64,000 nt of DNA from a virus: the IMG/VR virus record IMGVR_UViG_3300049783_001426, positions 21,639 through 85,638 of that record; one strand, 5' to 3'. The notes under the pieces are model-generated. The model searched no databases. It saw only the letters and a list, made by a program, of their open reading frames with translations, and had not been told where the DNA came from. Shown piece by piece: positions 5,316 through 50,561 of this stretch. The position numbers were made by a program, and so were the translations under genes. Each line of letters opens with the position of its first letter. The first letter of the stretch is position 1.

Positions 5316-5635
5316 AGCTTATTATAGAAAGCGGTATATTCTGGCTGTCCGGTAGTCATAAACAAAAAGCAATGATAGACGAAATGAGGGTGCAATTAGA
5401 GCATAAGCTTGACGCTGTAGTTGCGGCTGATGAAAGTGATGATGATGAAATATGCTTAGTGTTCTGCTATGACAAAGATGCTTACATAATAGATGATGTT
5501 AGGTGGCAATATAGAAAGATTAAGAAAGAACTTACGTTAATGAAAATGAACTCACTATATTATGTATATAAGAGGGAAGATGCACCAGAAGAGTTAATTA
5601 CTCGACATCCTGTCGCCAAAGCCTATAATGGCTAA
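5312..5635 (+). CDS. hypothetical protein, 107 aa
   Basis: A mixed alpha/beta soluble protein with an acidic middle (AADESDDDEICLVF). Coupled to the preceding small gene by ATGA. No family recognised. Confidence 0.7.
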   Translation: MKLIIESGIFWLSGSHKQKAMIDEMRVQLEHKLDAVVAADESDDDEICLVFCYDKDAYIIDDVRWQYRKIKKELTLMKMNSLYYVYKREDAPEELITRHPVAKAYNG

Positions 5636-5660
5636 TTTAATAAACCCCAAGGATAATTAA

Positions 5661-5870
5661 ATGCTTCAAATAATAGATGACGTCACCAACTCTCAAGGCA
5701 TAACCACATTTGAATTTAGTGATGGTACTACTTTGAATGCTAGGCAGTTGCATCACATCTCAGGGGCACCATTTGTGGCAATAGATAAGGTCACTGCACT
5801 GCAATGTAACTTAGTAATGGGTTGGAGCGGCTGCGCCATGCACCGTGATGCCGAACAGAGGAAATCCTAA
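5661..5870 (+). CDS. hypothetical protein, 69 aa
   Basis: A short soluble protein with no recognised domain. It has a ribosome site (CCAAGGATAATTAA) and its stop shares a base with the next ATG (TAATG). Confidence 0.65.
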   Translation: MLQIIDDVTNSQGITTFEFSDGTTLNARQLHHISGAPFVAIDKVTALQCNLVMGWSGCAMHRDAEQRKS

Positions 5871-6346
5871 TGAGTAAGAAGAAAATTAAGCCAAGGGTAT
5901 TCATAATGAAAAATAAGCTAAGCCTTAAGCCAACTTTTATATCACAATTAACAGCATTGGCAACCACGATGGACACTACAGTAGAATATGAATTTGATAT
6001 GTATTCTTATTGCAAAACTGCATGTTGTATTTGTGGTCACCAAGTCAAAACAAATAAATTAGATTTATTTCCGCTGGCTAAAAGTTCTCGATGGCCTGAA
6101 ACCAAGGCTAGGGTTCTATTAGATGACCTAAATTATGCATGTGAGCGACTGCTCGGTGAGTCATATCTATCAATGTCAGTTCATTACTCAGGCTCAGTCA
6201 GTAGACGTAATAAAGCAAGACTTTCTAATCTACTTAATAATGAACAGCTTATGCACGAGCACCTGACAGGAGAATCAAGTCCCAAAATTTCTGCGGATTA
6301 TATGAGAATGCTCATTGGTATTTTATCAAAAAATAAGTTGGGTTAA
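5870..6346 (+). CDS. hypothetical zinc-site protein, 158 aa; first of a tandem pair
   Basis: The core LKPTFISQLTALATTMD is followed by TACCICGHQ and NKLDLFPLAKS, then ARLSNLLNNEQLMHEHL and SSPKISADYMRMLIGILSK. The next gene repeats the same motifs in the same order, so the two are tandem duplicates. The CCICG motif may bind metal with a distant Cys (YACERL). Function unknown. Confidence 0.7.
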   Translation: MSKKKIKPRVFIMKNKLSLKPTFISQLTALATTMDTTVEYEFDMYSYCKTACCICGHQVKTNKLDLFPLAKSSRWPETKARVLLDDLNYACERLLGESYLSMSVHYSGSVSRRNKARLSNLLNNEQLMHEHLTGESSPKISADYMRMLIGILSKNKLG

Positions 6347-21583: not shown

Positions 21584-22078
21584 ATGTTAAGTTTTTTTAA
21601 GAAAATTAGTGGATTGGATTCAATAAAAGGTCATGTATTTTTGGTGGGGGATATATACCAAAAAAAGAATTATGATGAATGGCAATTAAATAATGGCCCA
21701 AAAGTGACCATAGTGGATATTAGTAGTAGGCGTGATAGGCTGAAATACAAAGAGCATTTTTCTTCGGTTGTTAGGGAGTGCAGTTATGTACGGTTTTTAT
21801 CTAAGTATAATTTAGTACCAACACAAATAACACAAATAACCCCTGACCCATATTCAGTACACCCAATTATAGTATGCAAGGAAAATGATGAGACGAACCA
21901 AAATAGCACGACGGTTGAGGTTGGCGAGGCGGTTAAGGTGGATGAGAAAGTAAAGCCAGTCGGTCCCCCAAATGAAAGATTTAGTCTTTGGTTTACAGGC
22001 AGCGAAAATTTTCCATTATTAATTAGTTGGGGTATAGTTACAATTTTATTAATTTGCATTTTAAGTGTGGTTGTATGA
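21584..22078 (+). CDS. tail-anchored membrane protein, 164 aa
   Basis: A soluble basic N-terminal part (LSFFKKISGLDSIKG...) leads to a linker rich in Val, Glu and Pro, then a C-terminal hydrophobic segment (LLISWGIVTILLICILSVVV), so the bulk would face the cytoplasm. The ATG at 21584 is chosen over an in-frame GTG at 21575. Function unknown. Confidence 0.65.
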   Translation: MLSFFKKISGLDSIKGHVFLVGDIYQKKNYDEWQLNNGPKVTIVDISSRRDRLKYKEHFSSVVRECSYVRFLSKYNLVPTQITQITPDPYSVHPIIVCKENDETNQNSTTVEVGEAVKVDEKVKPVGPPNERFSLWFTGSENFPLLISWGIVTILLICILSVVV

Positions 22079-30618: not shown

Positions 30619-30828
30619 ATGTTAAATGAAAAAATGAAATCGGTTATAGCTGCCTTACGTAATGGTAAATATAATCAATCTAAGGTTAGCCTGCAAGATT
30701 CTGATATGCAGTGCTATTTAGGTGTTTTATGTGACGAAAAGGAAACTGGGCATAAAAGTAGACGTAACTCATCCCCAGAAATCGCTGTCGTTGATAACAC
30801 AAACACAGAAGGATTACTTATATGTTAA
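30619..30828 (+). CDS. array A copy 0: internally deleted paralog, 69 aa
   Basis: The N-terminal 40 residues match the array family (MLNEKMKSVIAALRNGKYNQSKVSLQD) and the last residues (NTEGLLIC) match its end, but about 45 central residues with the W-V-G-L motif are missing. CYLGVLCDEKETG replaces the usual CCLGVMCEVYEKETG. It is probably a degenerate copy that keeps translational coupling to copy 1 (overlap at 30822). Confidence 0.7.
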   Translation: MLNEKMKSVIAALRNGKYNQSKVSLQDSDMQCYLGVLCDEKETGHKSRRNSSPEIAVVDNTNTEGLLIC

Positions 30829-31169
30829 ACGAAAATATGAAATCGGTTATAGTTGCCCTACGTAGTGGTAAATACAAGCAGACCGTAGGTGCTTTACAAA
30901 ATAGCTGTGGTCATTGCATACTTGGTGTAATTTGTGAGGTGTACGAAACAGACACTGGGGAAAGTCCAAAACGTGATTTGCGTGGTCGATTAATAGGTGA
31001 AGATTTATCTAGCCATATGGATGTACAGGAGTGGGTGGGTTTAGTGGACGGTGACGGTGATTGCGGCATTAGTAGACCATCACTAATGACTATGAACGAT
31101 ATACACAAAAATACATTCTCGGAAATCGCTGATTTTATTGAGTCTAATCCAGAAGGATTATTAGTATGA
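30822..31169 (+). CDS. array A copy 1, 115 aa (GHCCLGVMCE family)
   Basis: Family plan: (1) NENMK-x-V-VALRSG-Y-QT; (2) GHC-LGV-CEVYE-ETG; (3) a variable centre; (4) V-x2-WVGL; (5) MND-x4-TF-EIADFIE-x-PEGLLV. Single-copy relatives are common in phages as hypothetical proteins; their function is unknown. This copy has GHCILGVICEVYETDTG and a centre unlike its neighbours. It is linked to copy 2 by ATGA. Confidence 0.85.
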   Translation: MLNENMKSVIVALRSGKYKQTVGALQNSCGHCILGVICEVYETDTGESPKRDLRGRLIGEDLSSHMDVQEWVGLVDGDGDCGISRPSLMTMNDIHKNTFSEIADFIESNPEGLLV

Positions 31170-31510
31170 TAAACAAAAATATGAAAAAAGTGTTGGTTGC
31201 CTTACGCTCCGGTGAATTTACACAAACTGTAGCAAAATTACAAGATAGTTCTGGCCACTGTTGTTTAGGTGTGATGTGCGAAGTTTATGAGAAAGAAACT
31301 GGTGATGAACTTCCGCGTGACCAATCAGATTTTTTAGTGGGCAATAATCTTAACGACCATCAAAATGCATTACTTTGGCTGGGGCTAAGCAGCCCTCAAG
31401 GGCATAATGAGGTTGGTAGCAGCCTTATTTGCAGAAATGATTTTAATAGAAATACATTCTTAGAAATTGCTGATTTCATCGAATCTGAACCAAAAGGATT
31501 ATTAGTATGA
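31166..31510 (+). CDS. array A copy 2, 114 aa
   Basis: Conserved first and last blocks (GHCCLGVMCEVYEKETG; NTFLEIADFIESEPKGLLV) with a distinct centre; the usual WVGL is WLGL here. ATGA overlap at both ends. Confidence 0.85.
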   Translation: MINKNMKKVLVALRSGEFTQTVAKLQDSSGHCCLGVMCEVYEKETGDELPRDQSDFLVGNNLNDHQNALLWLGLSSPQGHNEVGSSLICRNDFNRNTFLEIADFIESEPKGLLV

Positions 31511-31881
31511 TAAACAAAAATATGAAAAAAGTGTTGGTTGCCTTACGCTCTGGTGAATTCACCCAAGCCGAAGGTATGCTACAATGTTCTGGTGGCCACT
31601 GTTGTTTAGGTGTGATGTGCGAGGTTTATGAGAAAGAAACTGGTGATGAACTTCCACATAATAGCATGGGGTTTTTGGTAGGTGGGGATCTTGATGGGCA
31701 GTTTTTTGGTAAAGTAAAGAGTTGGGTGGGACTAAAAAGTTACTCTGGAAAATTTGTTGGTTCATCGGGTAATCCCAATACTCCCAATAATTCACTAGTG
31801 GATATGAATGACACATTAAATAAGTCATTCGATGATATTGCTGATTTCATCGAAACTGAACCAGAAGGATTATTAGTATGA
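31507..31881 (+). CDS. array A copy 3, 124 aa
   Basis: The longest of array A: the centre has an insertion around KSWVGLKSYSGKFVGSSGN. The first 30 codons are nearly identical in DNA to copy 2, while the middle is not, the pattern expected from partial gene conversion. Confidence 0.85.
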   Translation: MINKNMKKVLVALRSGEFTQAEGMLQCSGGHCCLGVMCEVYEKETGDELPHNSMGFLVGGDLDGQFFGKVKSWVGLKSYSGKFVGSSGNPNTPNNSLVDMNDTLNKSFDDIADFIETEPEGLLV

Positions 31882-32231
31882 TAAACGAAAATATGAAGAA
31901 AGTTTTAGTTGCCTTACGTTCCGGTGAATATCAGCAAACTAAATGTAAATTACAAGATAGTTATGGTCACTGTTGTTTAGGTGTGATGTGTGATGTTTAC
32001 GAAAAAGAAACTGGTGTCAAACTTCGACGAGATACTGATAATTATATAAATGGATACAGTCTTGTCTTTATACAAGAAGTGCAGCAGTGGGTTGGATTAA
32101 CTGATACACATGGTACATTTATGTCACCAAGTAAACCATACTCACTAGCGACGATGAACGATCTTGAGGATAAAACATTCCTAGAAATTGCTGATTTCAT
32201 CGAAACTGAGCCAGAAGGATTATTAGTATGA
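31878..32231 (+). CDS. array A copy 4, 117 aa
   Basis: Same plan with GHCCLGVMCDVYEKETG, QQWVGL and FLEIADFIETEPEGLLV. ATGA coupling to both neighbours. Confidence 0.85.
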   Translation: MINENMKKVLVALRSGEYQQTKCKLQDSYGHCCLGVMCDVYEKETGVKLRRDTDNYINGYSLVFIQEVQQWVGLTDTHGTFMSPSKPYSLATMNDLEDKTFLEIADFIETEPEGLLV

Positions 32232-32563
32232 TAAACGAAAATATGAAAAAGGTTTTAGTTGCCTTACGTAGTGGTGAATATAAACAAACTCAATATAGAT
32301 TACAAGATTCTGGTGGCCACTGTTGCTTAGGTGTGATGTGCGAAGTTTATGAGAAAGAAACTGGTGTCAAACTTCCGCGAGATGGTGTATCAGGTTTTAT
32401 AGTAGGTTCTAATCTTAATAAATTTCCGTTAGTAAAGAGCTGGGTGGGATTACACGAAGACATCGTAGCTGATGTTAATGCGAATATCGATTTACTGGTG
32501 GGTATGAATGACACATTTAATAATTCATTCGATGAAATCGCTGACTTCATCGAAACTGAATAA
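32228..32563 (+). CDS. array A copy 5, 111 aa, shortened C-terminus
   Basis: Ends ADFIETE and lacks the final PEGLLV because a TAA replaces that stretch. As a result the ATGA overlap is lost and copy 6 starts 12 bases downstream behind its own AAAAGGA site. The centre (FIVGSNLNKFPLVKSWVGL) is shared with copy 6. Confidence 0.85.
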   Translation: MINENMKKVLVALRSGEYKQTQYRLQDSGGHCCLGVMCEVYEKETGVKLPRDGVSGFIVGSNLNKFPLVKSWVGLHEDIVADVNANIDLLVGMNDTFNNSFDEIADFIETE

Positions 32564-32574
32564 AAAGGATTATT

Positions 32575-32928
32575 ATGATAAACGAAAATATGAAGAAAGT
32601 TTTAGTTGCCTTACGTTCCGGTGAATTCACACAAACAACATCAACCTTACAAGATAGTTGTGGTCACTGTTGTTTAGGTGTGATGTGTGAAGTTTACGAA
32701 AAGGAAACTGGTGTCAAACTTCCGCGAGATATATCAGGTTTTATAGTAGGTTCTAATCTTAGTGGTTTTCCTCTAGTAAAGAGCTGGGTGGGATTAAATA
32801 AAGACAACGATGCGGGTCATGCAGATGGCAGTATATATTCACTAGTGGATATGAACGATAGGCTCAATAATACTTTCTTAGAAATTGCTGATCATATCGA
32901 GTCTCAACCAAAAGGATTATTAGTATGA
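32575..32928 (+). CDS. array A copy 6, 117 aa
   Basis: Close to copy 5 through SGFIVGSNL and FPLVKSWVGL, then diverges and ends with the full EIADHIESQPKGLLV. Copies 5 and 6 look like the most recent duplication in array A. Confidence 0.85.
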   Translation: MINENMKKVLVALRSGEFTQTTSTLQDSCGHCCLGVMCEVYEKETGVKLPRDISGFIVGSNLSGFPLVKSWVGLNKDNDAGHADGSIYSLVDMNDRLNNTFLEIADHIESQPKGLLV

Positions 32929-33269
32929 TAAACGAAAATATGAAGAAAGTTTTAGTTGCCTTACGCTCCGGTGAATATAAACAAACTCAAGAATCGTTAC
33001 AAGATAAATCTGGTCACTGTTGTTTAGGTGTGATGTGTGAAGTTTACGAAAAAGAAACTGGGGATACTATCCCCCGTAGTAGTAGTGGACTTATTATCGG
33101 TGGTGATCTTGGTGTAAGACGCCAAAAAGTAAGACGCTGGGTGGGACTAAAACATCATAACGGTTCGTGCTTGGTTGGCAAATCACTAATTTCTATGAAT
33201 GACGCAAATAAGTCATTCATAGAAATTGCTGATCATATCGAGTCTCAACCAGAAGGGTTATTAGTATAA
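32925..33269 (+). CDS. array A copy 7 (last), 114 aa
   Basis: Standard ends; the centre (GVRRQKVRRWVGLKHHNGS) is unusually basic. It ends with GLLV and TAA rather than an ATGA, marking the end of the array. Confidence 0.85.
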   Translation: MINENMKKVLVALRSGEYKQTQESLQDKSGHCCLGVMCEVYEKETGDTIPRSSSGLIIGGDLGVRRQKVRRWVGLKHHNGSCLVGKSLISMNDANKSFIEIADHIESQPEGLLV

Positions 33270-33351: not shown

Positions 33352-35358
33352 ATGGATTTCATGACACTGAAGATGGCAATAAACAATAAGTTTGACGAAC
33401 TTCAAAAGGGCAACTTATATATTTCCAATGCAACTAAAGAAGAATTATGGGACACGTACATATCTTCGTTTCGCCCAGAAGATAACCCAATGTTTCGTGA
33501 GCGAACCGAACATGATTGTAATTGCTGCAAGTCTTTTATTCGCACTGCTGGCGGTATGTTGTCCATCGTTAATAATAAGATTGTGTCTATTTGGGATGTC
33601 GTAGATGTACCAGAGGGCTATCAAATCGTCGCCGATGCTATGTCTGCATTAGTTAAAAGTAGGGGCATAGATACTGAATTTCTTCACTATGAAAATACTG
33701 TTGGTACGGACCATAACCACGACACAGAAACTGATGTTGTGTGGAATCATTTTTATTTAAAATTACCATCTAGATTTGTTAATAAAGACTCAGGTGCAGT
33801 AACTGGTCTAACCCGTGACCGATACAATATGGCACGTCGTTCATTAGCTGGGATCACGATGGAATCTATTAATATTGTGATTGAGTTAGTTAAAAATAAA
33901 GAAATTTATCGCGGCGAAGAGCACTTAGATTCCATTAATAAATTCGCCGGAACGAAAAATGCTTTCGAGAGTATTAGTGAGCAAAATGTCGAAGCTAGAA
34001 CAGCATTTCTCTGGGAAGCCAGTAAAAGAATTGGTGCAGCATCTGGTTTTCGAACTACAGTAATTGGTACGTTGTTATCTGATATTAGTGAAGGGGTTGA
34101 ATTATATAAAGCTGTAAAGTCTTTTGAGAGTAAAGTAGCACCAAGTAATTACAAGCGACCAACTCAGATTTTATCTAAGGCTGCCATCGAAAAAGCTGAA
34201 GCTAAAATGATTGAGTTGCTTATCACAGATGCATCACTTGAACGCAGAATGTCAAGAGCTGAAGACATTACTATAAATAATGTGTTATTTGCAGACCGCT
34301 CCGCTCAAGAAAAAATGGGTATTTTTCATATGCTACAATCTGAGGTTAAGGTTAAGGTGCCGTCATATAAAAAGGACATGGAAATGTCAATTGATGAGTT
34401 CATAAACGACGTGTTACCAAACGTATCGACGGTTGAAATGGCCATGGATAACACACATGTCGGTAATTTAATGACCTTAGTCTCGCCAATATACGAAGAA
34501 GCTGAATCAATCCTCAAGTGGGGCAATAATTTTAGTTGGTCATATAATGGTGAAGTTACTGACTCAATCAAAGAGCGCGTAAAAGCTGCTGGCGGTAATG
34601 TAACTGGCGATGTACGAGTCTCATTGAGTTGGCACAACGCTGATGACTTAGATTTGCATGCCAAAACACCTAATGGGCGAAGAATTAATTTTAGTAATCG
34701 AACTGATGGGCGTGGCGGTGAGTTAGATGTCGATATGAACGCTAATGGTAGACATGACAGAATAAATCCAGTAGAAAACATTACGTGGCCAGATGAGTCA
34801 CGGATGCATAATGGTTTATATGAAGTTAATGTTCATAATTACACGAAGCGTCAAAATGATAATATCGGGTTTGAGGTTGAGTTAGAGCATAAAGGTATAA
34901 TCCATAAATTCGTTTATGATAAGGCAGTGAAGGACGGAGAATCTATTGAAGTGGTTCAGTTTGATTTTAATACACGAAATGGTATTAGTATAATTAAGTC
35001 ATTGCCATCAGTTAATTCTCAAAGACAAGTTTGGGGTGTCTCCACCAATAAATTCCAAAAGGTGAGTATGATTATGAATTCACCAAACCATTGGGATGGT
35101 GAAGCTACCGGAAACAAGCATGTGTTCTTTATGTTAGAAGGGTGTGTTAATCCAGAACCAGTGCGCGGATTTTATAACGAATTCCTACGCGATGATTTAC
35201 ACAGTGAACGCAAAGTGTTTGAAGTACTGGCTGGTAAAATGAAACCGGAACCATCAGTTAATCAGTTATCTGGTTTAGGGTTCTCAAGTACGCAGCGCAA
35301 TAGTGTATTATGTAAAGTTACAGGCGAAATCAATCGCACAATTAAAATTAAGTTCTGA
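33352..35358 (+). CDS. large phage protein with a YfaP/DUF2135-like beta domain, 668 aa
   Basis: Residues about 420-545 (VSLSWHNADDLDLHAKTPNGR-, a GELDVDMNANG turn, and NGLYEVNVHNYTKR) fit the YfaP/DUF2135-type beta sandwich, which has acidic DxD and D-x-N-x-N sites that may bind calcium. The N-terminal 400 residues are helical with CNCC near residue 60. Such large proteins, followed by a ~130-aa helical gene as here, recur in phages but remain uncharacterised. First gene after promoter P12. Confidence 0.75.
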   Translation: MDFMTLKMAINNKFDELQKGNLYISNATKEELWDTYISSFRPEDNPMFRERTEHDCNCCKSFIRTAGGMLSIVNNKIVSIWDVVDVPEGYQIVADAMSALVKSRGIDTEFLHYENTVGTDHNHDTETDVVWNHFYLKLPSRFVNKDSGAVTGLTRDRYNMARRSLAGITMESINIVIELVKNKEIYRGEEHLDSINKFAGTKNAFESISEQNVEARTAFLWEASKRIGAASGFRTTVIGTLLSDISEGVELYKAVKSFESKVAPSNYKRPTQILSKAAIEKAEAKMIELLITDASLERRMSRAEDITINNVLFADRSAQEKMGIFHMLQSEVKVKVPSYKKDMEMSIDEFINDVLPNVSTVEMAMDNTHVGNLMTLVSPIYEEAESILKWGNNFSWSYNGEVTDSIKERVKAAGGNVTGDVRVSLSWHNADDLDLHAKTPNGRRINFSNRTDGRGGELDVDMNANGRHDRINPVENITWPDESRMHNGLYEVNVHNYTKRQNDNIGFEVELEHKGIIHKFVYDKAVKDGESIEVVQFDFNTRNGISIIKSLPSVNSQRQVWGVSTNKFQKVSMIMNSPNHWDGEATGNKHVFFMLEGCVNPEPVRGFYNEFLRDDLHSERKVFEVLAGKMKPEPSVNQLSGLGFSSTQRNSVLCKVTGEINRTIKIKF

Positions 35359-38268: not shown

Positions 38269-39141
38269 ATGTTTAACGATATTAGGGTAATATTAAATAA
38301 TAATGTGGGTATGAGTGTTATAGTCAGTCAGTTTAATGATGGGTCGGTTAATGTATGCCTACCACCTGATGTACGCTGTCCGATTAGTGTGGGTTCGATT
38401 GTAGTGCGTGCTAAATTGACAAGTTCTGTTAGTTTAGTTGCATTGTTACTGACGGTTGATGCGTGTCGTCGGAAATTCCCAGATTTACAATTCATCTCTT
38501 TGGTTGCTCATTATATGCCATACGCAAGACAAGACCGTGTGTGTAATATGGGTGAGTCACTTTCGTCGAAAGTTATGGCTGGCCTTATTAATGGTTGTGG
38601 TTTTAGTAGTGTGACTATCGCAGACCCACACAGTGATGTGATGGTGGCGTTGATAGATAATTGTAAAGTTATTAGTGCAGAAAGTATCATTGCTTCTAAT
38701 GAAGTTCTATCTAATAGAATTATGGGTGGATTTTATACACTAGTTGCGCCGGATGCTGGCTCAAGAAAGAAAGTAGAAAAAATCGCAACACGTTTTGGAC
38801 TCGATGGATTTGTGCAGGGGTCAAAACATAGAAACTTAAAGACTGGGGAATTGTCAGAAATAACATTTAGTGGTGATGTCCAAGATAAACATTGCCTTAT
38901 CATAGATGATATATGCGATGGTGGTGGGACATTCGTTGGTCTAGCAGAAATAATGAAGGAAGCTGGGGCACTTAGTGTAGATTTGTATGTGACACACGGG
39001 TTCTTTTCTCGTGGCACCGATACAGTAAATGGCGAAAATAAGGCAATAAACCAAATATTCACAACAGACTCAATTAGCAGAGACCAAGGCACACGTAAGT
39101 CTCTTAATATAATCGAAATAGGAAATAATAATTATGAGTAA
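38269..39141 (+). CDS. ribose-phosphate pyrophosphokinase-like protein (Prs / possible Adps of NARP1)
   Basis: The PRPP synthetase layout is present: ISLVAHYMPYARQDRV (ATP loop), SSKVMAGLINGCGFSSVTIADPHSD, LVAPDAGSRKK and the PRPP-binding loop CLIIDDICDGGGTF. Length 290 against about 315 in bacteria. Classical Prs makes PRPP from ribose 5-phosphate and ATP. Phage homologs in the NARP1 pathway instead pyrophosphorylate ADP-ribose. The gene overlaps the NAMPT-like gene by eight bases, so the two must act together. Which substrate applies cannot be read from sequence alone. Confidence 0.88.
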   Translation: MFNDIRVILNNNVGMSVIVSQFNDGSVNVCLPPDVRCPISVGSIVVRAKLTSSVSLVALLLTVDACRRKFPDLQFISLVAHYMPYARQDRVCNMGESLSSKVMAGLINGCGFSSVTIADPHSDVMVALIDNCKVISAESIIASNEVLSNRIMGGFYTLVAPDAGSRKKVEKIATRFGLDGFVQGSKHRNLKTGELSEITFSGDVQDKHCLIIDDICDGGGTFVGLAEIMKEAGALSVDLYVTHGFFSRGTDTVNGENKAINQIFTTDSISRDQGTRKSLNIIEIGNNNYE

Positions 39142-40711
39142 CGTCGTACCAGCAACATTAGCAAAAGATGCATACAAGGCATTTCACCCATTAGCATATC
39201 ACCCTGATGTCTCAGAAGTTTATGCAAATTACATAAATCGCTCTGGTCGTTTAAGTAATATACCAACTAAGATAAATCTTGGTGGTGTAGTTAATATTGG
39301 CGCACAAAGATTCTGTATGGATTTCTTAATTGGCGAGTTTAATGATACTTTCTTCAACCTAGATGAAGATGTGGCCATTGAGCAGCATGCTCGTGTATTT
39401 AGAGCTATGTTAGGGCGAGCATTTAGCGACGAAAGACTACGTAAACTACATAAGTTGGGTTATCTTCCTCTTCGCCTTAAAACACTACCAGAAGGCACAA
39501 TAACTCCGTATGGTGTTGCTAACATTACTGTGCGATCAACCAAATCTGATTTTCAGTGGTTAACAAACTCAATTGAAACTGTATTGAGCTGTGAAGTTTC
39601 TGGTATATCTACTTCATGCACCACAGCCACTGCATACCTAAAAACTTTTATTAAATATGCTCGACTCACTGGATTAGATGAAGAATTCTGTCAATTTCAG
39701 GGGCATGATTTTTCAATGCGCGGTATGATTTTTGGTCGACATGGCGCATACCTTTCTGGTTTAGGGCATCTTGCATCTGGCTTAGTTGGTACCGATACCA
39801 TGGGTTCAGTTTTATTAGCCGAGAAATTCTATGGCGCAAACCTAGAAACTGAGTTAGTTGGTGTATCAGTTGATGCAACAGAACATAGTGTAACTTGTTC
39901 TTGGATCGAAGAAGGCGAAGAAGAGTTCTGTAAATATTTAATGAGTAAAGCTTCACCTTCCGGTATTCTTTCGGTAGTTGCTGACACTTGGGACTTTGAG
40001 AATTTTGTGTGCAATATTGTACCTAAATTAAAAGAAGCAATTATGGCACGTGATGGGTCGTTTATAATCCGCCCCGACTCTGGTTGTCCGGTCAAGGTAT
40101 TAACTGGTTATACTAGCGAAGAAGTGAGCATGGATTATCGCGGTAAATTCTACCCACTTGATGATGATGGCGAAGTAGATTATTATTCTAAAGCCCTAAC
40201 ACAATTTGAAATTGATGGCCTCATTGAAACATTATGGAATCAATTTGGTGGCACACTAACTGATAAAGGTTATAAGCTTTTAGATGAGCATATTGGTGCA
40301 ATTTATGGGGACTCAATTACATTAGAACGTCAAGAGCTAATCTTACAGCGTTTAATGGATAAGGGGTTCGCTTCTAAGGTTGTCCTTGGTATTGGTAGTT
40401 ACACGTATCAACACGTGACACGCGACACACATGGCTCTGCAGTAAAAGCTACTAGTATGATTAAAGATGGCCGTCGCGTTGCTATATTTAAAGACCCTAA
40501 AGGTGATAGCAGTAAGAAATCCGCGAAAGGTTTGTTGTATGTTGGTCGCGATGAGAATGGTGTAATACACCAATTTGATGATGTATCTGAGGAACACGAA
40601 AGAGAAGGTTTATTGGAAACTATATTTTTGGATGGTAAAATGGTTAAAACCACTACACTAAAAGAAATTCGTGCTCTAATTATGTCACAGCTCCAAACTC
40701 AACTTAAATAA
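39134..40711 (+). CDS. nicotinamide phosphoribosyltransferase-like protein (NadV/NAMPT; possible Namat of NARP1)
   Basis: NAMPT signatures: GHDFSMRGM, GLVGTDTMG, ATEHSVTCSW (catalytic His), LSVVADTWDFENFV and IIRPDSGCPV. Length 525 against about 490, with a longer C-terminus. NAMPT joins nicotinamide to PRPP giving NMN; the phage NARP1 homolog joins it to ADPR-pyrophosphate giving NAD directly. No NMN adenylyltransferase was found in this window, consistent with the NARP1 variant or with host enzymes finishing the route. Confidence 0.9.
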   Translation: MSNVVPATLAKDAYKAFHPLAYHPDVSEVYANYINRSGRLSNIPTKINLGGVVNIGAQRFCMDFLIGEFNDTFFNLDEDVAIEQHARVFRAMLGRAFSDERLRKLHKLGYLPLRLKTLPEGTITPYGVANITVRSTKSDFQWLTNSIETVLSCEVSGISTSCTTATAYLKTFIKYARLTGLDEEFCQFQGHDFSMRGMIFGRHGAYLSGLGHLASGLVGTDTMGSVLLAEKFYGANLETELVGVSVDATEHSVTCSWIEEGEEEFCKYLMSKASPSGILSVVADTWDFENFVCNIVPKLKEAIMARDGSFIIRPDSGCPVKVLTGYTSEEVSMDYRGKFYPLDDDGEVDYYSKALTQFEIDGLIETLWNQFGGTLTDKGYKLLDEHIGAIYGDSITLERQELILQRLMDKGFASKVVLGIGSYTYQHVTRDTHGSAVKATSMIKDGRRVAIFKDPKGDSSKKSAKGLLYVGRDENGVIHQFDDVSEEHEREGLLETIFLDGKMVKTTTLKEIRALIMSQLQTQLK

Positions 40712-43802: not shown

Positions 43803-44165
43803 ATGATAAACGAAAACATGAAAAAGGTTTTGGTTGCCTTACGTTCCGGTGAATATAATCAATCTAAGCTTAATTTACAGAATATTAGTGGGTATTGTTG
43901 TTTGGGTGTTATGTGTGAAGTTTACGAAAAGGAAACAGGAAATACACTTGACCGTGATACTCTTGGAATAATAAAAGGATCGGACCTTAGAGACCAAGAA
44001 CATGTACAAAATTGGGTCGGACTTAGGACATTTATAGGTGAAGTTTTTTTAGACACCAATGAGCTGAATGCGCAGGACTTAACTATGATGAATGATCACT
44101 CAAACAAAACATTCCTAGAAATTGCTGATTTCATTGAATCTGAGCCAGAAGGTTTATTATTATGA
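43803..44165 (+). CDS. array B copy 1, 120 aa (GHCCLGVMCE family)
   Basis: Same plan as array A, here with GYCCLGVMCEVYEKETG, HVQNWVGL and KTFLEIADFIESEPEGLLL. It follows dexA by two bases, so array B joins the dexA transcript rather than having its own promoter. Confidence 0.85.
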   Translation: MINENMKKVLVALRSGEYNQSKLNLQNISGYCCLGVMCEVYEKETGNTLDRDTLGIIKGSDLRDQEHVQNWVGLRTFIGEVFLDTNELNAQDLTMMNDHSNKTFLEIADFIESEPEGLLL

Positions 44166-44536
44166 TAAACGAAAACATGAAAAAGGTTTTAGTTGCCTTA
44201 CGTTCCGATGAATATAAACAAACTAAGCTTATGTTACATAACACTGAAGGTCACTGTTGTTTAGGTGTTATGTGTGAAGTTTACGAAAAGGAAACAGGAA
44301 ATACACTTGACCGTGACACAACAGGTTTTATTATTGGGGGAGACCTCGACGACCAAGATAAAGTACAGGAGTGGGTTGGTCTTAGAACTTCTGAAGGTGA
44401 TCATCGAATGAAAAGGTATGCTGCTGATAAAGATCCTATTACCAGAGACCTGACCCAATTAAATGACAGCAGCAATTACAATTTCTTGCATATCGCTGAT
44501 CACATCGAATCTGAGCCAGAAGGTTTATTATTATGA
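44162..44536 (+). CDS. array B copy 2, 124 aa
   Basis: Very close to copy 1 to about residue 65 (NTLDRDT, GSDL/GGDL), then diverges (WVGLRTSEGDHRMKRYAADK). The end YNFLHIADHIESEPEGLLL differs slightly. ATGA coupled. Confidence 0.85.
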   Translation: MINENMKKVLVALRSDEYKQTKLMLHNTEGHCCLGVMCEVYEKETGNTLDRDTTGFIIGGDLDDQDKVQEWVGLRTSEGDHRMKRYAADKDPITRDLTQLNDSSNYNFLHIADHIESEPEGLLL

Positions 44537-44880
44537 TAAACGAAAACATGAAAAAGGTTTTAGTTGCCTTACGTTCCGGTGAATATAAACAAACTCAAGA
44601 ATCGTTACAAGATGGGCAAGGGCATTGTTGTTTAGGTGTCATGTGTGATGTCTTCGCGAAAGAGACGGGCAGTACTCTCAGAACGTTTGATGACACAGGT
44701 CACATATACGGGGTCAGCCTTAATGAGCATAATGATGTACAAGAGTGGGCGGGACTCCAGCATTGCACCGGAGAAAGTCAATTTAAATTTAGCTTAGTGC
44801 AGCTAAATGATATTGAGGGTAAAACATTCTCAGAAATCGCTGACTTCATCGAAACTGAGCCAGAAGGATTATTAGTATGA
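44533..44880 (+). CDS. array B copy 3, 115 aa
   Basis: The first 27 residues (EYKQTQESLQD) match array A copy 7, while the centre (FAKETGSTLRTFDD) differs from every other copy. So exchange between the two arrays is likely. The middle motif is WAGL rather than WVGL. Confidence 0.85.
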   Translation: MINENMKKVLVALRSGEYKQTQESLQDGQGHCCLGVMCDVFAKETGSTLRTFDDTGHIYGVSLNEHNDVQEWAGLQHCTGESQFKFSLVQLNDIEGKTFSEIADFIETEPEGLLV

Positions 44881-45242
44881 TAAACGAAAACATGAAAAAG
44901 GTTTTAGTTGCCTTACGTTCCGGTGAATATAAACAAACTAAGGAAGCACTTCAAAATTCTAGTGGTCACTGCTGTTTAGGTGTCATGTGTGAGGTCTACG
45001 AAAAGGAAACGGGGGATATTATAGACCGGAGAACATCTGGTAATATTATGGGAGGTAATTTAAGTAGGCATGAAAAAGTACAGACGTGGGTTGGTCTATT
45101 GACATCATCAGGGGATATAACGATTGTCTCGCCAAATAGCTCAAAACATATCTCACTGGCACATATGAATGATAGTGAGGGTAAAACATTCTCAGAAATT
45201 GCCGATTTTATTGAGTCTGAGCCAAAAGGATTATTAGTATAA
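44877..45242 (+). CDS. array B copy 4 (last), 121 aa
   Basis: Standard ends (GHCCLGVMCEVYEKETG; KTFSEIADFIESEPKGLLV), its own centre. It ends with TAA, and the twin of promoter P10 begins eight bases later. Confidence 0.85.
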   Translation: MINENMKKVLVALRSGEYKQTKEALQNSSGHCCLGVMCEVYEKETGDIIDRRTSGNIMGGNLSRHEKVQTWVGLLTSSGDITIVSPNSSKHISLAHMNDSEGKTFSEIADFIESEPKGLLV

Positions 45243-47383: not shown

Positions 47384-47725
47384 ATGAGTCTAAAGACTGC
47401 AATAGAACAAGAATGCAAGAACTGCACATATGACCAATCGTCTGACGGTAGCTGGAGACAGCAAATCAAAGGGTGTTGTGGCAGTAAGTGTGAATTGTAC
47501 AAAGTCCGTCCGTTACCAATTGGGGATAGACATGAAATTCTTTCTAGTCGCCGCAAAGCTGTCGATGCTCAATGCAAGGCCTGTATATACGATGTGGGTG
47601 ATTTAGATGCAGTGGGTACATGGAGACAACAAGTTCGAGATTGTAAGTCTACTGGGTGTGGCATATATAAAGAAAGACCAATGCCTATCTCCAGCAATGA
47701 AATACAAATAGTGGAGTTACACTAA
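47384..47725 (+). CDS. two-module cysteine-rich protein, 113 aa
   Basis: Two internal repeats, each with C-x2-C-x-YD ... GSWRQQ-x3-C ... C-x-LYK/IYKxRP-LPI (EQECKNCTYD...KCELYKVRPLPI; DAQCKACIYD...GCGIYKERPMPI). Each module likely holds one zinc. Comparable short zinc modules (C-x2-C ... W..Q...C ... C..Y..RP) occur in other phages. It is linked to the ligase by TAATG. Confidence 0.72.
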   Translation: MSLKTAIEQECKNCTYDQSSDGSWRQQIKGCCGSKCELYKVRPLPIGDRHEILSSRRKAVDAQCKACIYDVGDLDAVGTWRQQVRDCKSTGCGIYKERPMPISSNEIQIVELH

Positions 47726-49131
47726 TGTCACTTGTTTATGAAGCAATAAAAAGTTTAACTGCCGCCAAGGGCGCAAATAATAAATTACTTATATTGCGCG
47801 AAGAGCTAAGCACACTACAAAGTAAAGCATTAATGGAAATTGTCATTTATACATATGACAATATGAGAAGTTACCATGTATCCAACATCATAGAAGAGCC
47901 ATGTAGTTTTGCTGGCAGTATATTTGATGATGTAACCACGAAGAACTATGCACTGACTGACGTGCTAAAATACCTTAGATATCTAAACGAAAAGGGTAGC
48001 GCAAACAGCGAAGATAAGAGAATGCTCGGTAAAATTAAGGCTGGTCTATCTCATGAAAATAAGACAGTCATGGACCTAATCATCAGAAGAGATTTACGTT
48101 GCGGCCTCGGCCTTAAAAGTTTCCGTAAGGTGTGGGGCCAAGGATTCCTACCTGACATGAGTTATGCGCTGATGGCCTCATTCAATGAAAAAAAGGTAAA
48201 GAAGTCCATCAACTTTAAAGTGGGTGCATTTAGTCAATTAAAGTCTGATGGCAAACGTAGTATATTAACATGTAGAAATCGTTCGTTTGTATCTCGCTCA
48301 CGTAATGGGATACCAAACGGTCAAGTTGACCAGATTACCGAAATGGCTAAGCAATTTAAAATTGCCGGAGACTTTGACCTAGATGGTGAGCTAGTAGTAT
48401 TAGACGAAAATGGCGATATTTTGCCACGAACCACTGGCAATGGCATTGTAGCTAAAGTAGCGGCAGGGTCTGCATCTAAAGATGAATTAGCTAGGGTTAG
48501 ATATGTAGTTTGGGACTTAATCTTACATGACGAAGAACCAATGGTGTACGAAGAACGTTTTGATATGCTAAAAAAAGAACTTGCTCGTCTATTTCTTAAT
48601 GGTTACCCAGAAGAAAGTATAATATTAACGGATAGTAAATTTGTATACTCACTGAAGGAAGCAAAAGATCATTATCGTGAGCTAGTTAAATCAGGCAAAG
48701 AAGGTACAATTTTAAAGGACAGAAGCAGTTTATGGACGTGTGGTGATAGCGATAGCTGCCGAGAAGTTAATGGCTTCAAATTCAAAGAATTATTAGAGGG
48801 TGACTTCGAGATTACTGGTTGGTATTATGGAAAGAAAGGCACAAAGTACGAAAATGCTATTGGTGGCCTAGAATGTAAGTCATCTTGTGGGCAGATAGTG
48901 TTTAATGTCGGTAGTGGTCTAACGGACGATGTTAGATTCATGGATGACCCAGACAAACTAATAGCAACTATAGTCGAGTGTTTGTATAATGCACGAACGA
49001 TGGTCGAAGGCAGGGGGACTTGGTCGTTGTTCTTACCGCGTGTAACTGAGTTTAGGACGGATAAGTCGGTTGCTGATGACTTAGATAAAATAATCAAAGC
49101 TGAAGAAGCTTATAGAAATTTGGAGGAATAA
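47725..49131 (+). CDS. 30: ATP-dependent DNA ligase (gp30-like)
   Basis: Motif I KSDGKR places the adenylated lysine at residue 173. Motif III (FDLDGELVV), motif IV (VSK/GTILKDRSS region) and motif V (EVNGFKFKELLEGDFEI) follow. The N-terminal helical domain is present. Length 468 against 487 in T4. It seals nicks between lagging-strand fragments. The acyl-carrier-like gene follows after two bases. Confidence 0.94.
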   Translation: MSLVYEAIKSLTAAKGANNKLLILREELSTLQSKALMEIVIYTYDNMRSYHVSNIIEEPCSFAGSIFDDVTTKNYALTDVLKYLRYLNEKGSANSEDKRMLGKIKAGLSHENKTVMDLIIRRDLRCGLGLKSFRKVWGQGFLPDMSYALMASFNEKKVKKSINFKVGAFSQLKSDGKRSILTCRNRSFVSRSRNGIPNGQVDQITEMAKQFKIAGDFDLDGELVVLDENGDILPRTTGNGIVAKVAAGSASKDELARVRYVVWDLILHDEEPMVYEERFDMLKKELARLFLNGYPEESIILTDSKFVYSLKEAKDHYRELVKSGKEGTILKDRSSLWTCGDSDSCREVNGFKFKELLEGDFEITGWYYGKKGTKYENAIGGLECKSSCGQIVFNVGSGLTDDVRFMDDPDKLIATIVECLYNARTMVEGRGTWSLFLPRVTEFRTDKSVADDLDKIIKAEEAYRNLEE

Positions 49132-49133
49132 TC

Positions 49134-49385
49134 ATGTCAATAAAAACAGCAGTGCTATCAATAATCTCGGACGTTCTGTATATCGCACCTAGCTTTAATC
49201 CAGAACAACAAATAGTTGATGACTTGGGTGCCGATGAGATTGATATATTAAATATAGTTACGGAACTAGAAAATCATTTTGATGTTGTAATATTAGATAA
49301 ACAAATTTTTGAAAGTATGCGAGCTATGCATTTAGTTGGGGTAATTGAAGATTTAGTCGACGAAAAAAATAACAGTCGTTCCTAA
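49134..49385 (+). CDS. acyl carrier protein-like, without the phosphopantetheine serine, 83 aa
   Basis: The fold signature is clear: IVDDLGADEIDILNIVTELENHFD at residues 28-50, matching the bacterial ACP segment with DSL at the attachment site. Here the serine is replaced by Glu35 (D34-E35-I36), so the normal prosthetic group cannot be attached. It may act as a stand-alone ACP mimic or a binding partner of host ACP-using enzymes (inference). Confidence 0.75.
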   Translation: MSIKTAVLSIISDVLYIAPSFNPEQQIVDDLGADEIDILNIVTELENHFDVVILDKQIFESMRAMHLVGVIEDLVDEKNNSRS

Positions 49386-49409
49386 TTAAGCTCTTGATAA
49401 ATTAGGTGT

Positions 49410-49529
49410 ATGTATGCATGCATGCACCGTGTTGTTTTAAGGAGGGAATGGATAACTACCGGAAATTTACGGTATATGTCATATTATGAAGCCATGCGTA
49501 ATATGAATAGGTTTAATAATGGGGAATGA
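49410..49529 (+). CDS. possible micro-protein, 39 aa
   Basis: A frame from ATG 49410 (alternative ATG 49422) to TGA 49527-49529 gives a basic peptide with LRREWITTGNLRYMSYYEAM followed by RNMNRFNNGE. It fills most of the 177-base space after the ACP-like gene. An overlapping short frame with a stronger AAGGAGGG site (ATG 49451) has only 13 codons. Support is weak. Confidence 0.3.
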   Translation: MYACMHRVVLRREWITTGNLRYMSYYEAMRNMNRFNNGE

Positions 49530-49562: not shown

Positions 49563-50561
49563 ATGGCTAAACTTCGAAAACTTTTTAAAGATGATGAAAT
49601 TCTGGACTCCATAGCAGCAACAAAAAGTGATGGGGCCGCCGGAAGAAAGTTATCCGAATTAGGTCGTGGGAAAATATCAAAACAGTTGATGCGCTATTGG
49701 AGACGTCAACTGACTGAGATAACAAAAAAAGATGGGACGCCATATTCGGGATCTGGTAAATTAGATAAGAAAATTCAGTTAGAAGAAGTGAAATTACGTA
49801 CACCGAGTCAATCGGACGATGACCGGACAACAGTAGTTACTTATGATGACACAAGAATACTTAATATACCAGACCAGCATGCACCGTACCAGCACCCAGA
49901 TGCACTAGATTTCTTGATGGCAGTCAAAAAAGAAATTGAGCCTACAAGAATAGTAAATTTGGGAGATGAGACGGACGGACACGGATTATCGATGCATGAC
50001 TCAGATCCTAACCTAGACTCAGCTGGTGTTGAGCTGGTTAGGGCTAGAGAGTGGCTACAATCACTCGAAGAAGAATTTCCAATTATGGATATATGTCACA
50101 GTAACCACGGCAGCCTAATTTATCGTAGAGCATTTAAATTTGGTATACCAGCTCAGTACATAAAATCATATAGAGAAATAATTTTTCCGGATGGAAGTGG
50201 CCAAGGTTGGGACTGGAAAGGTCGACATAGAGCAGTATTACCGAACGGCGAAGATGTTATTTTTCAACATCAATCTGCTGGTGATACTCTGATTAACGCA
50301 GGGCATGAAAGGGCTAGTATCGTAGAGGGACATGAACACGGTAAATTTGAAATACAATACCGTAAATCTACCAATGCGCTATACTGGACTATCATATCTG
50401 GTTGTTTGATTGACCCCGATGCCATGGCGTTTGCGTATGGTAAATTGTTCCCAAAAAGACCAATTTTGGGCTGTTCCGTCATCATCGATTCAATACCTAG
50501 GTTAATACCCATGGTCTTGGATAGACGAGGCAGATGGATACGAACACTTAGCGGTTTTTAA
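49563..50561 (+). CDS. calcineurin-like metallophosphoesterase, 332 aa
   Basis: Metal motifs: ILNIPDQHAPY (D-x-H), IVNLGDETDGH (GD), CHSNHGSL (in place of GNH[DE]) and EGHEHGK (GHxH). The N-terminal ~60 residues (DEILDSIAATKSDGAAGRKL..) look like a small helix-turn-helix-type DNA-binding domain. Substrates of phage enzymes of this kind include DNA ends and nucleotides; none is established here. A strong terminator follows. Confidence 0.8.
   Translation: MAKLRKLFKDDEILDSIAATKSDGAAGRKLSELGRGKISKQLMRYWRRQLTEITKKDGTPYSGSGKLDKKIQLEEVKLRTPSQSDDDRTTVVTYDDTRILNIPDQHAPYQHPDALDFLMAVKKEIEPTRIVNLGDETDGHGLSMHDSDPNLDSAGVELVRAREWLQSLEEEFPIMDICHSNHGSLIYRRAFKFGIPAQYIKSYREIIFPDGSGQGWDWKGRHRAVLPNGEDVIFQHQSAGDTLINAGHERASIVEGHEHGKFEIQYRKSTNALYWTIISGCLIDPDAMAFAYGKLFPKRPILGCSVIIDSIPRLIPMVLDRRGRWIRTLSGF

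Follow-up and report, generated by a model that had tools for sequence, protein, structure and literature searches.

A viral protein with the fold of an acyl carrier protein (ACP) lacks the serine to which phosphopantetheine is normally attached. The protein is encoded in a 64,000-nucleotide stretch of DNA (hereafter, the window; positions 21,639 to 85,638 of IMG/VR record IMGVR_UViG_3300049783_001426), which is part of an 85.6-kb viral record. We believe that it is probably a pseudo-acyl-carrier protein that does without phosphopantetheine and has been reused as a small acidic protein-binding module. Its fold and the loss of its attachment site are read from the sequence and a structural model, and the binding role is what we infer from them. 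Judging from its sequence, the protein is one of a recurring group of phage ACPs that lack the serine, and this group is apparently undescribed in print.

Table 1. Features of the window in and around the ACP-like gene (positions are those of the window).
Feature	Position	Strand	Basis and remarks
ACP-like gene	49134..49385	+	83 aa; ATG start, TAA stop; ORF list, Pfam PF00550, PHROG 5934, AlphaFold/Foldseek
GAG codon, Glu35 at the place of E. coli AcpP Ser36	49236..49238	+	sequence, alignments, DSSP of model
Helix II (residues 35-49), ACP recognition helix	49236..49280	+	AlphaFold model, residue table
GGAGG ribosome-binding site	49122..49126	+	within the 3' end of the ligase gene; 7 bases upstream of the ACP-like ATG
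ATP-dependent DNA ligase	47725..49131	+	directly upstream; Pfam DNA_ligase_A_M E=5e-19, PHROG 114 E=6e-89
Terminator-like hairpin, T-rich tail	49405..49428	+	immediately 3' of the ACP-like gene; consensus scan
Metallophosphoesterase	49563..50561	+	next downstream gene; PHROG 221 E=5.5e-76

The window protein is an ACP-fold protein, as judged from profile searches and its predicted structure. It matched Pfam PF00550 (PP-binding) with E=1.6e-6 and 28.7 bits, above the curated cut-off of 20.8, and PHROG 5934 (acyl carrier protein) with E=1.8e-7, and a profile built from its alignment matched ACPs in the PDB at E ~1e-28. The AlphaFold model (mean pLDDT 88.6) had the four ACP helices (residues 3-15, 35-49, 55-60, and 64-81). 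ACPs took the top ranks in a Foldseek search with the model, and the rmsd relative to E. coli AcpP was ~1 Å. The protein resembles bacterial AcpP (PF00550; E. coli PDB 1L0H) in fold, length, acidity (pI 4.1), and the motif DLGAD-x-x-D, and, like the phage ACPs of PHROG 5934, it is the product of a standalone phage gene. Many phage ACPs retain the serine (DSL; for example, Harreka_1, Bajun, and MW202777), unlike the window protein. PHROG 4154, the ACP of the Ackermannviridae, matched over residues 27-58 only (E=5.9e-5), and a full-length match with its N-terminal extension was not found.

The attachment serine is replaced by glutamate. The window motif DDLGADEIDILNI aligned with E. coli EDLGADSLDTVEL, placing Glu35 opposite Ser36, and in the model Glu35 was the first residue of helix II (by DSSP). 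The motif on either side was intact, with Asp34, Asp37, and the rest of DLGAD-x-x-D kept. There was no serine at residues 21-60, which take in helix II and the loop leading into it, ruling out a second attachment serine nearby. A sequencing error or isolated mutation was also ruled out: no Ser codon is fewer than two base changes away from GAG, and Glu is also encoded in two independent contigs. In E. coli, the Ser36-to-Thr variant of AcpP is neither modified nor functional (PMC3340395). Because Ser36 is replaced and helix II has no other serine, conventional acyl carriage by the window protein is excluded on the basis of its residues.

These results bear out the initial annotation, which had described an ACP-like protein with Glu for the phosphopantetheine serine (Pfam, PHROG, the model, and the GAG codon agree) that is unable to carry an acyl chain in the usual way. 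It had also held that a serine in most close relatives would speak against this description; a search with the window protein found two viral relatives, L001 and L002, and both had Glu at the site. Its further claim that everything else fits an ACP is right for the fold and DLGAD-x-x-D and too strong for helix II, in which Asn, Thr, and Asn take the places that Glu41, Met44, and Glu48 have in E. coli AcpP. The equivalents of AcpP D35 (just before helix II), D38, E47, F50, and I54 are kept. Overall, helix II of the window protein was identical to that of E. coli AcpP at 9/22 positions, compared to 13-16/22 in the Ackermannviridae proteins and a fusion to rIIB (below).

The ACP-like gene is probably co-transcribed with the ligase gene, since its ATG is only 2 nt past the ligase stop codon. 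The metallophosphoesterase gene is probably a separate unit; the consensus scan found one terminator-like hairpin compared to 0.6 expected, which is weak evidence taken alone. There was no ACP synthase or ketosynthase gene in the 85.6-kb record, which is possibly incomplete, and no Rfam family within the 64-kb window. The viral DNA polymerase shares 54-55% identity with its counterparts in Vibrio phages henriette 12B8, 2.058.O, and V6Aob, and relatives of this kind suggest a gammaproteobacterial host. A ligase-based search found no close viral relatives. The ACP-like gene is absent from the records of the three Vibrio phages, neither adjoining the ligase gene nor elsewhere, and because these are the nearest cultured relatives, sequence comparison places it as an accessory gene in the window virus.

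Other parts of the window also drew our attention. A nicotinamide phosphoribosyltransferase gene (39134-40711, + strand; PHROG 448, E=1e-161) belongs to NAD salvage and might be relevant to counter-defence. Two arrays on the + strand (30822-33269 and 43803-45242) consist of head-to-tail overlapping ORFs of ~110-124 aa (MINENMKKVLVALRSGEY...CCLGVMCEVYEKETG). We read four paralogues from the second array, which belong to PHROG 18067 (function unknown), and the first array has a repeat unit in common with the second (Tandem Repeats Finder).

Serine-less ACPs recur among viruses, with different residues at the site. A motif scan that requires Glu is biased by design, and we therefore used a second scan for DLGAD-x-hydrophobic-D-x-hydrophobic-E in which the site codon begins with C or G, which excludes Ser. 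There were 73 serine-less viral ACP-like ORFs, all confirmed by HMM, with E in 33, D in 17, P in 12, Q in 4, V in 4, and A in 3 (Asp or Glu in 50/73); these counts include overlapping copies of one contig and give no share of serine-bearing members. A strict requirement for Glu is thus ruled out across phages, and the focus of the initial annotation on Glu, while apt for the window protein and its two relatives, was too narrow.

The serine-less genes in a marine clade (L043, L060, L009, L220, and others) are, from their substitution pattern, maintained under purifying selection. The clade consists of close orthologues with E, D, P, V, or A at the site (DLGAD[EDPVA]FD). In a 19-sequence subset having E or D at the site, dN/dS was ~0.17, indicating maintenance; for the window protein, the relatives are too few to estimate dN/dS. 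Like the window protein, the marine proteins have no serine at the site, but they form a separate clade and their genes adjoin spanin or tail genes. In four marine viruses (L043, at 5376-6076, L060, L084, and L072) the serine-less ACP gene immediately precedes an Rz-like spanin gene or a look-alike, and in some marine viruses there are DnaJ-like and ClpA-like genes nearby. The ACP-like gene of jumbo phage E9.1 (L265) also precedes a spanin gene. In contig L080 (10543-12446), a Glu-type ACP-like gene is between genes for a Sak4-like ssDNA-annealing ATPase and SSB, and this ATPase is also encoded upstream in the related contigs L002 and L018. Taken together, the contexts of serine-less members (ligase, ssDNA-annealing and SSB genes, spanins, and tail genes) are too varied for a single partner to be named. 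Phage ACPs without the serine did not come up in our literature search, which was thin on subscription journals and preprints.

Serine-less ACPs are also present in cultured phages. An 'acyl carrier protein' is annotated in ~300 Ackermannviridae records (326 matches, some of them from other phages), and the site was Glu or Asp in all seven that we read (SKML-39, Det7, Kamild, Menlow, PM10, ECML-4, and Trex_ER12). Serratia phage MAM1 and Vibrio phage ICP1 likewise encode Glu at this position, and a jumbo coliphage encodes Trp. The Ackermannviridae protein (PHROG 4154; Det7, SKML-39, Menlow) is similar to the window protein in being a small acidic phage protein with Glu or Asp at the site. It differs in having an N-terminal extension of ~25-35 aa and a helix II much nearer that of E. 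coli AcpP, and in following a VWA-like protein of PHROG 2426. This 733-aa protein (L093:1173-3374; function unknown) is encoded just before the ACP-like gene, and a gene of similar size has this position in the other members looked at. We had considered that the neighbor was rIIA, which was ruled out, as was homology of the PHROG 2426 protein to a 668-aa protein of the window (33352-35358). In Aeromonas phage Aswh_1, rIIB (L216:2480-3724) begins with a Glu-type ACP-like domain with the motif DELD, fused to a helix-turn-helix and rIIB, in contrast to the standalone window protein. The only proteomic trace that we came across was from phage Sajous1, in which mass spectrometry retrieved a 'putative acyl carrier protein' once (PMC10892097), which indicates at most that the protein is made. 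A possible link to hypermodified DNA was dropped, as the match in the paper was only a table entry for an 'acyl carrier protein reductase'.

A few bacterial proteins have Glu-type ACP domains. Most of the 119 bacterial stretches found by a scan for the DLGADE motif were not ACPs, and four had such a domain, in proteins from Sphingobacterium, Pedobacter, Rubellimicrobium, and Mastigocoleus. From its sequence, the Pedobacter protein looks like a lipoprotein, and that from Rubellimicrobium, which is found alongside a normal AcpP, looks like it has a signal peptide. The Sphingobacterium protein (L175) is RHS-like, and its C-terminal Glu-type ACP-like domain appears to be duplicated.

Serine-less ACPs had more than one origin, as judged from a tree of 24 sequences in which the site itself was masked. 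The label (serine-less or not) must change six times on this tree, and holding all serine-less rows together was rejected (AU p=0.014). The window protein grouped with L001 (84/86). How many origins there were is uncertain, given the short alignment and the long branch of the window sequence.

We propose that an ACP-fold domain that lost phosphopantetheine attachment would have been kept by the phage as a protein-binding module. The serine position, once freed, could be taken by Glu, Asp, and Pro, residues suited to the position where helix II begins, and Glu would add negative charge next to Asp34 and Asp37. The face formed by loop 1 and helix II would then probably dock on a partner with no need for the arm. 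Glu, Asp, and Pro are favored in the first turn of helices, and because Glu35 is the first helical residue of the model, this preference would account for the spectrum of replacements with no special role for Glu. Nor need Glu be a dedicated mimic of a modified serine, since the residues found at the site across phages are E, D, P, Q, V, and A. A binding module would be expected to turn up in fusions, as the serine-less domain does in Aswh_1 rIIB and in bacterial proteins. Its partner may be a phage protein or a host protein that binds ACP and tolerates the apo form (for instance, MukB); we put the chance of a host protein at about even, that of a phage protein somewhat lower, and that of anything else as small.

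A special case of such a binding module is a host-takeover decoy that fills the ACP-binding pockets of acyltransferases, SpoT, AcpS, or MukB and blocks or redirects them. This is possible, although we think it less likely than not. The acidity of the window protein and its equivalents of Asp35, Asp38, and Glu47 fit a decoy, but much of helix II does not, given the low identity and the changes M44T, E41N, and E48N. Known interactions also divide the candidate partners. SpoT binding is abolished by AcpP M44I and M44K (PMC3340395), and SpoT is therefore an unlikely partner of the window protein, which has Thr at this position. Binding of IscS requires AcpP D35, D38, and S36 (PMC13343975), making IscS unlikely as well, again as judged from the residues present. 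In contrast, apo- and holo-AcpP stimulate the MukB ATPase to the same degree (PMC8602292), and, by analogy, MukB is a possible partner because it accepts the apo form. The decoy idea is stronger for the Ackermannviridae, whose helix II is much nearer that of E. coli AcpP, and the rIIB fusion has comparable identity.

The other explanations have less in their favor. Glu35 together with Asp29, Asp34, and Asp37 might bind Ca, Mn, or Mg, such that a metal-locked fold replaces the function of the arm. Metal site A of E. coli ACP is Glu30/Asp35/Asp38 (PMC12469350), and its equivalents (Asp29, Asp34, and Asp37) are kept in the window protein; the prevalence of Asp and Glu in the serine-less set and the exported-looking bacterial proteins with Glu-type domains are also consistent with a metal-stabilized domain. 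We consider it quite unlikely, as close relatives within one clade have Pro, Val, or Ala there, indicating that the extra carboxylate is not required. The same substitutions in the marine orthologues count against a carrier of another type, with cargo on the Glu side chain, even though Glu is the commonest residue at the serine-less sites. The model for such a carrier, the amino-group carrier protein LysW, uses a C-terminal Glu in a fold unrelated to ACP, and we regard this explanation as highly improbable. Finally, the gene might be decaying or recently acquired and have no function, as could be the case for an accessory gene on a long branch that is missing from the three nearest cultured phages. 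We give this little credence: the ORF and DLGAD-x-x-D are intact, the ribosome-binding site is good, the ACP model is confident, Ser could become Glu only through two or more base changes, and selection on the serine-less relatives is purifying.

Databases and the literature class phage 'acyl carrier proteins' as auxiliary metabolic genes (PMC5463345, PMC8224337; also the PHROG category). Should a large proportion of these proteins, among them those of the well-studied Ackermannviridae, be without the attachment serine, this annotation is wrong for them. A broader reading, which we think rather unlikely, is that phages repeatedly converged on phosphopantetheine-free ACP mimics (the window virus, Ackermannviridae, ICP1, Aeromonas rIIB, and marine viruses) that dock on a shared gammaproteobacterial ACP-binding hub that is independent of the arm, such as MukBEF, and control chromosome or membrane functions during infection. 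If this were true, what is annotated as an 'acyl carrier protein' in hundreds of phages would be a takeover factor and not a metabolic gene. The serine-less proteins also raise a concrete question for laboratory systems: what the ACP fold does without its arm, and which host hub it touches.
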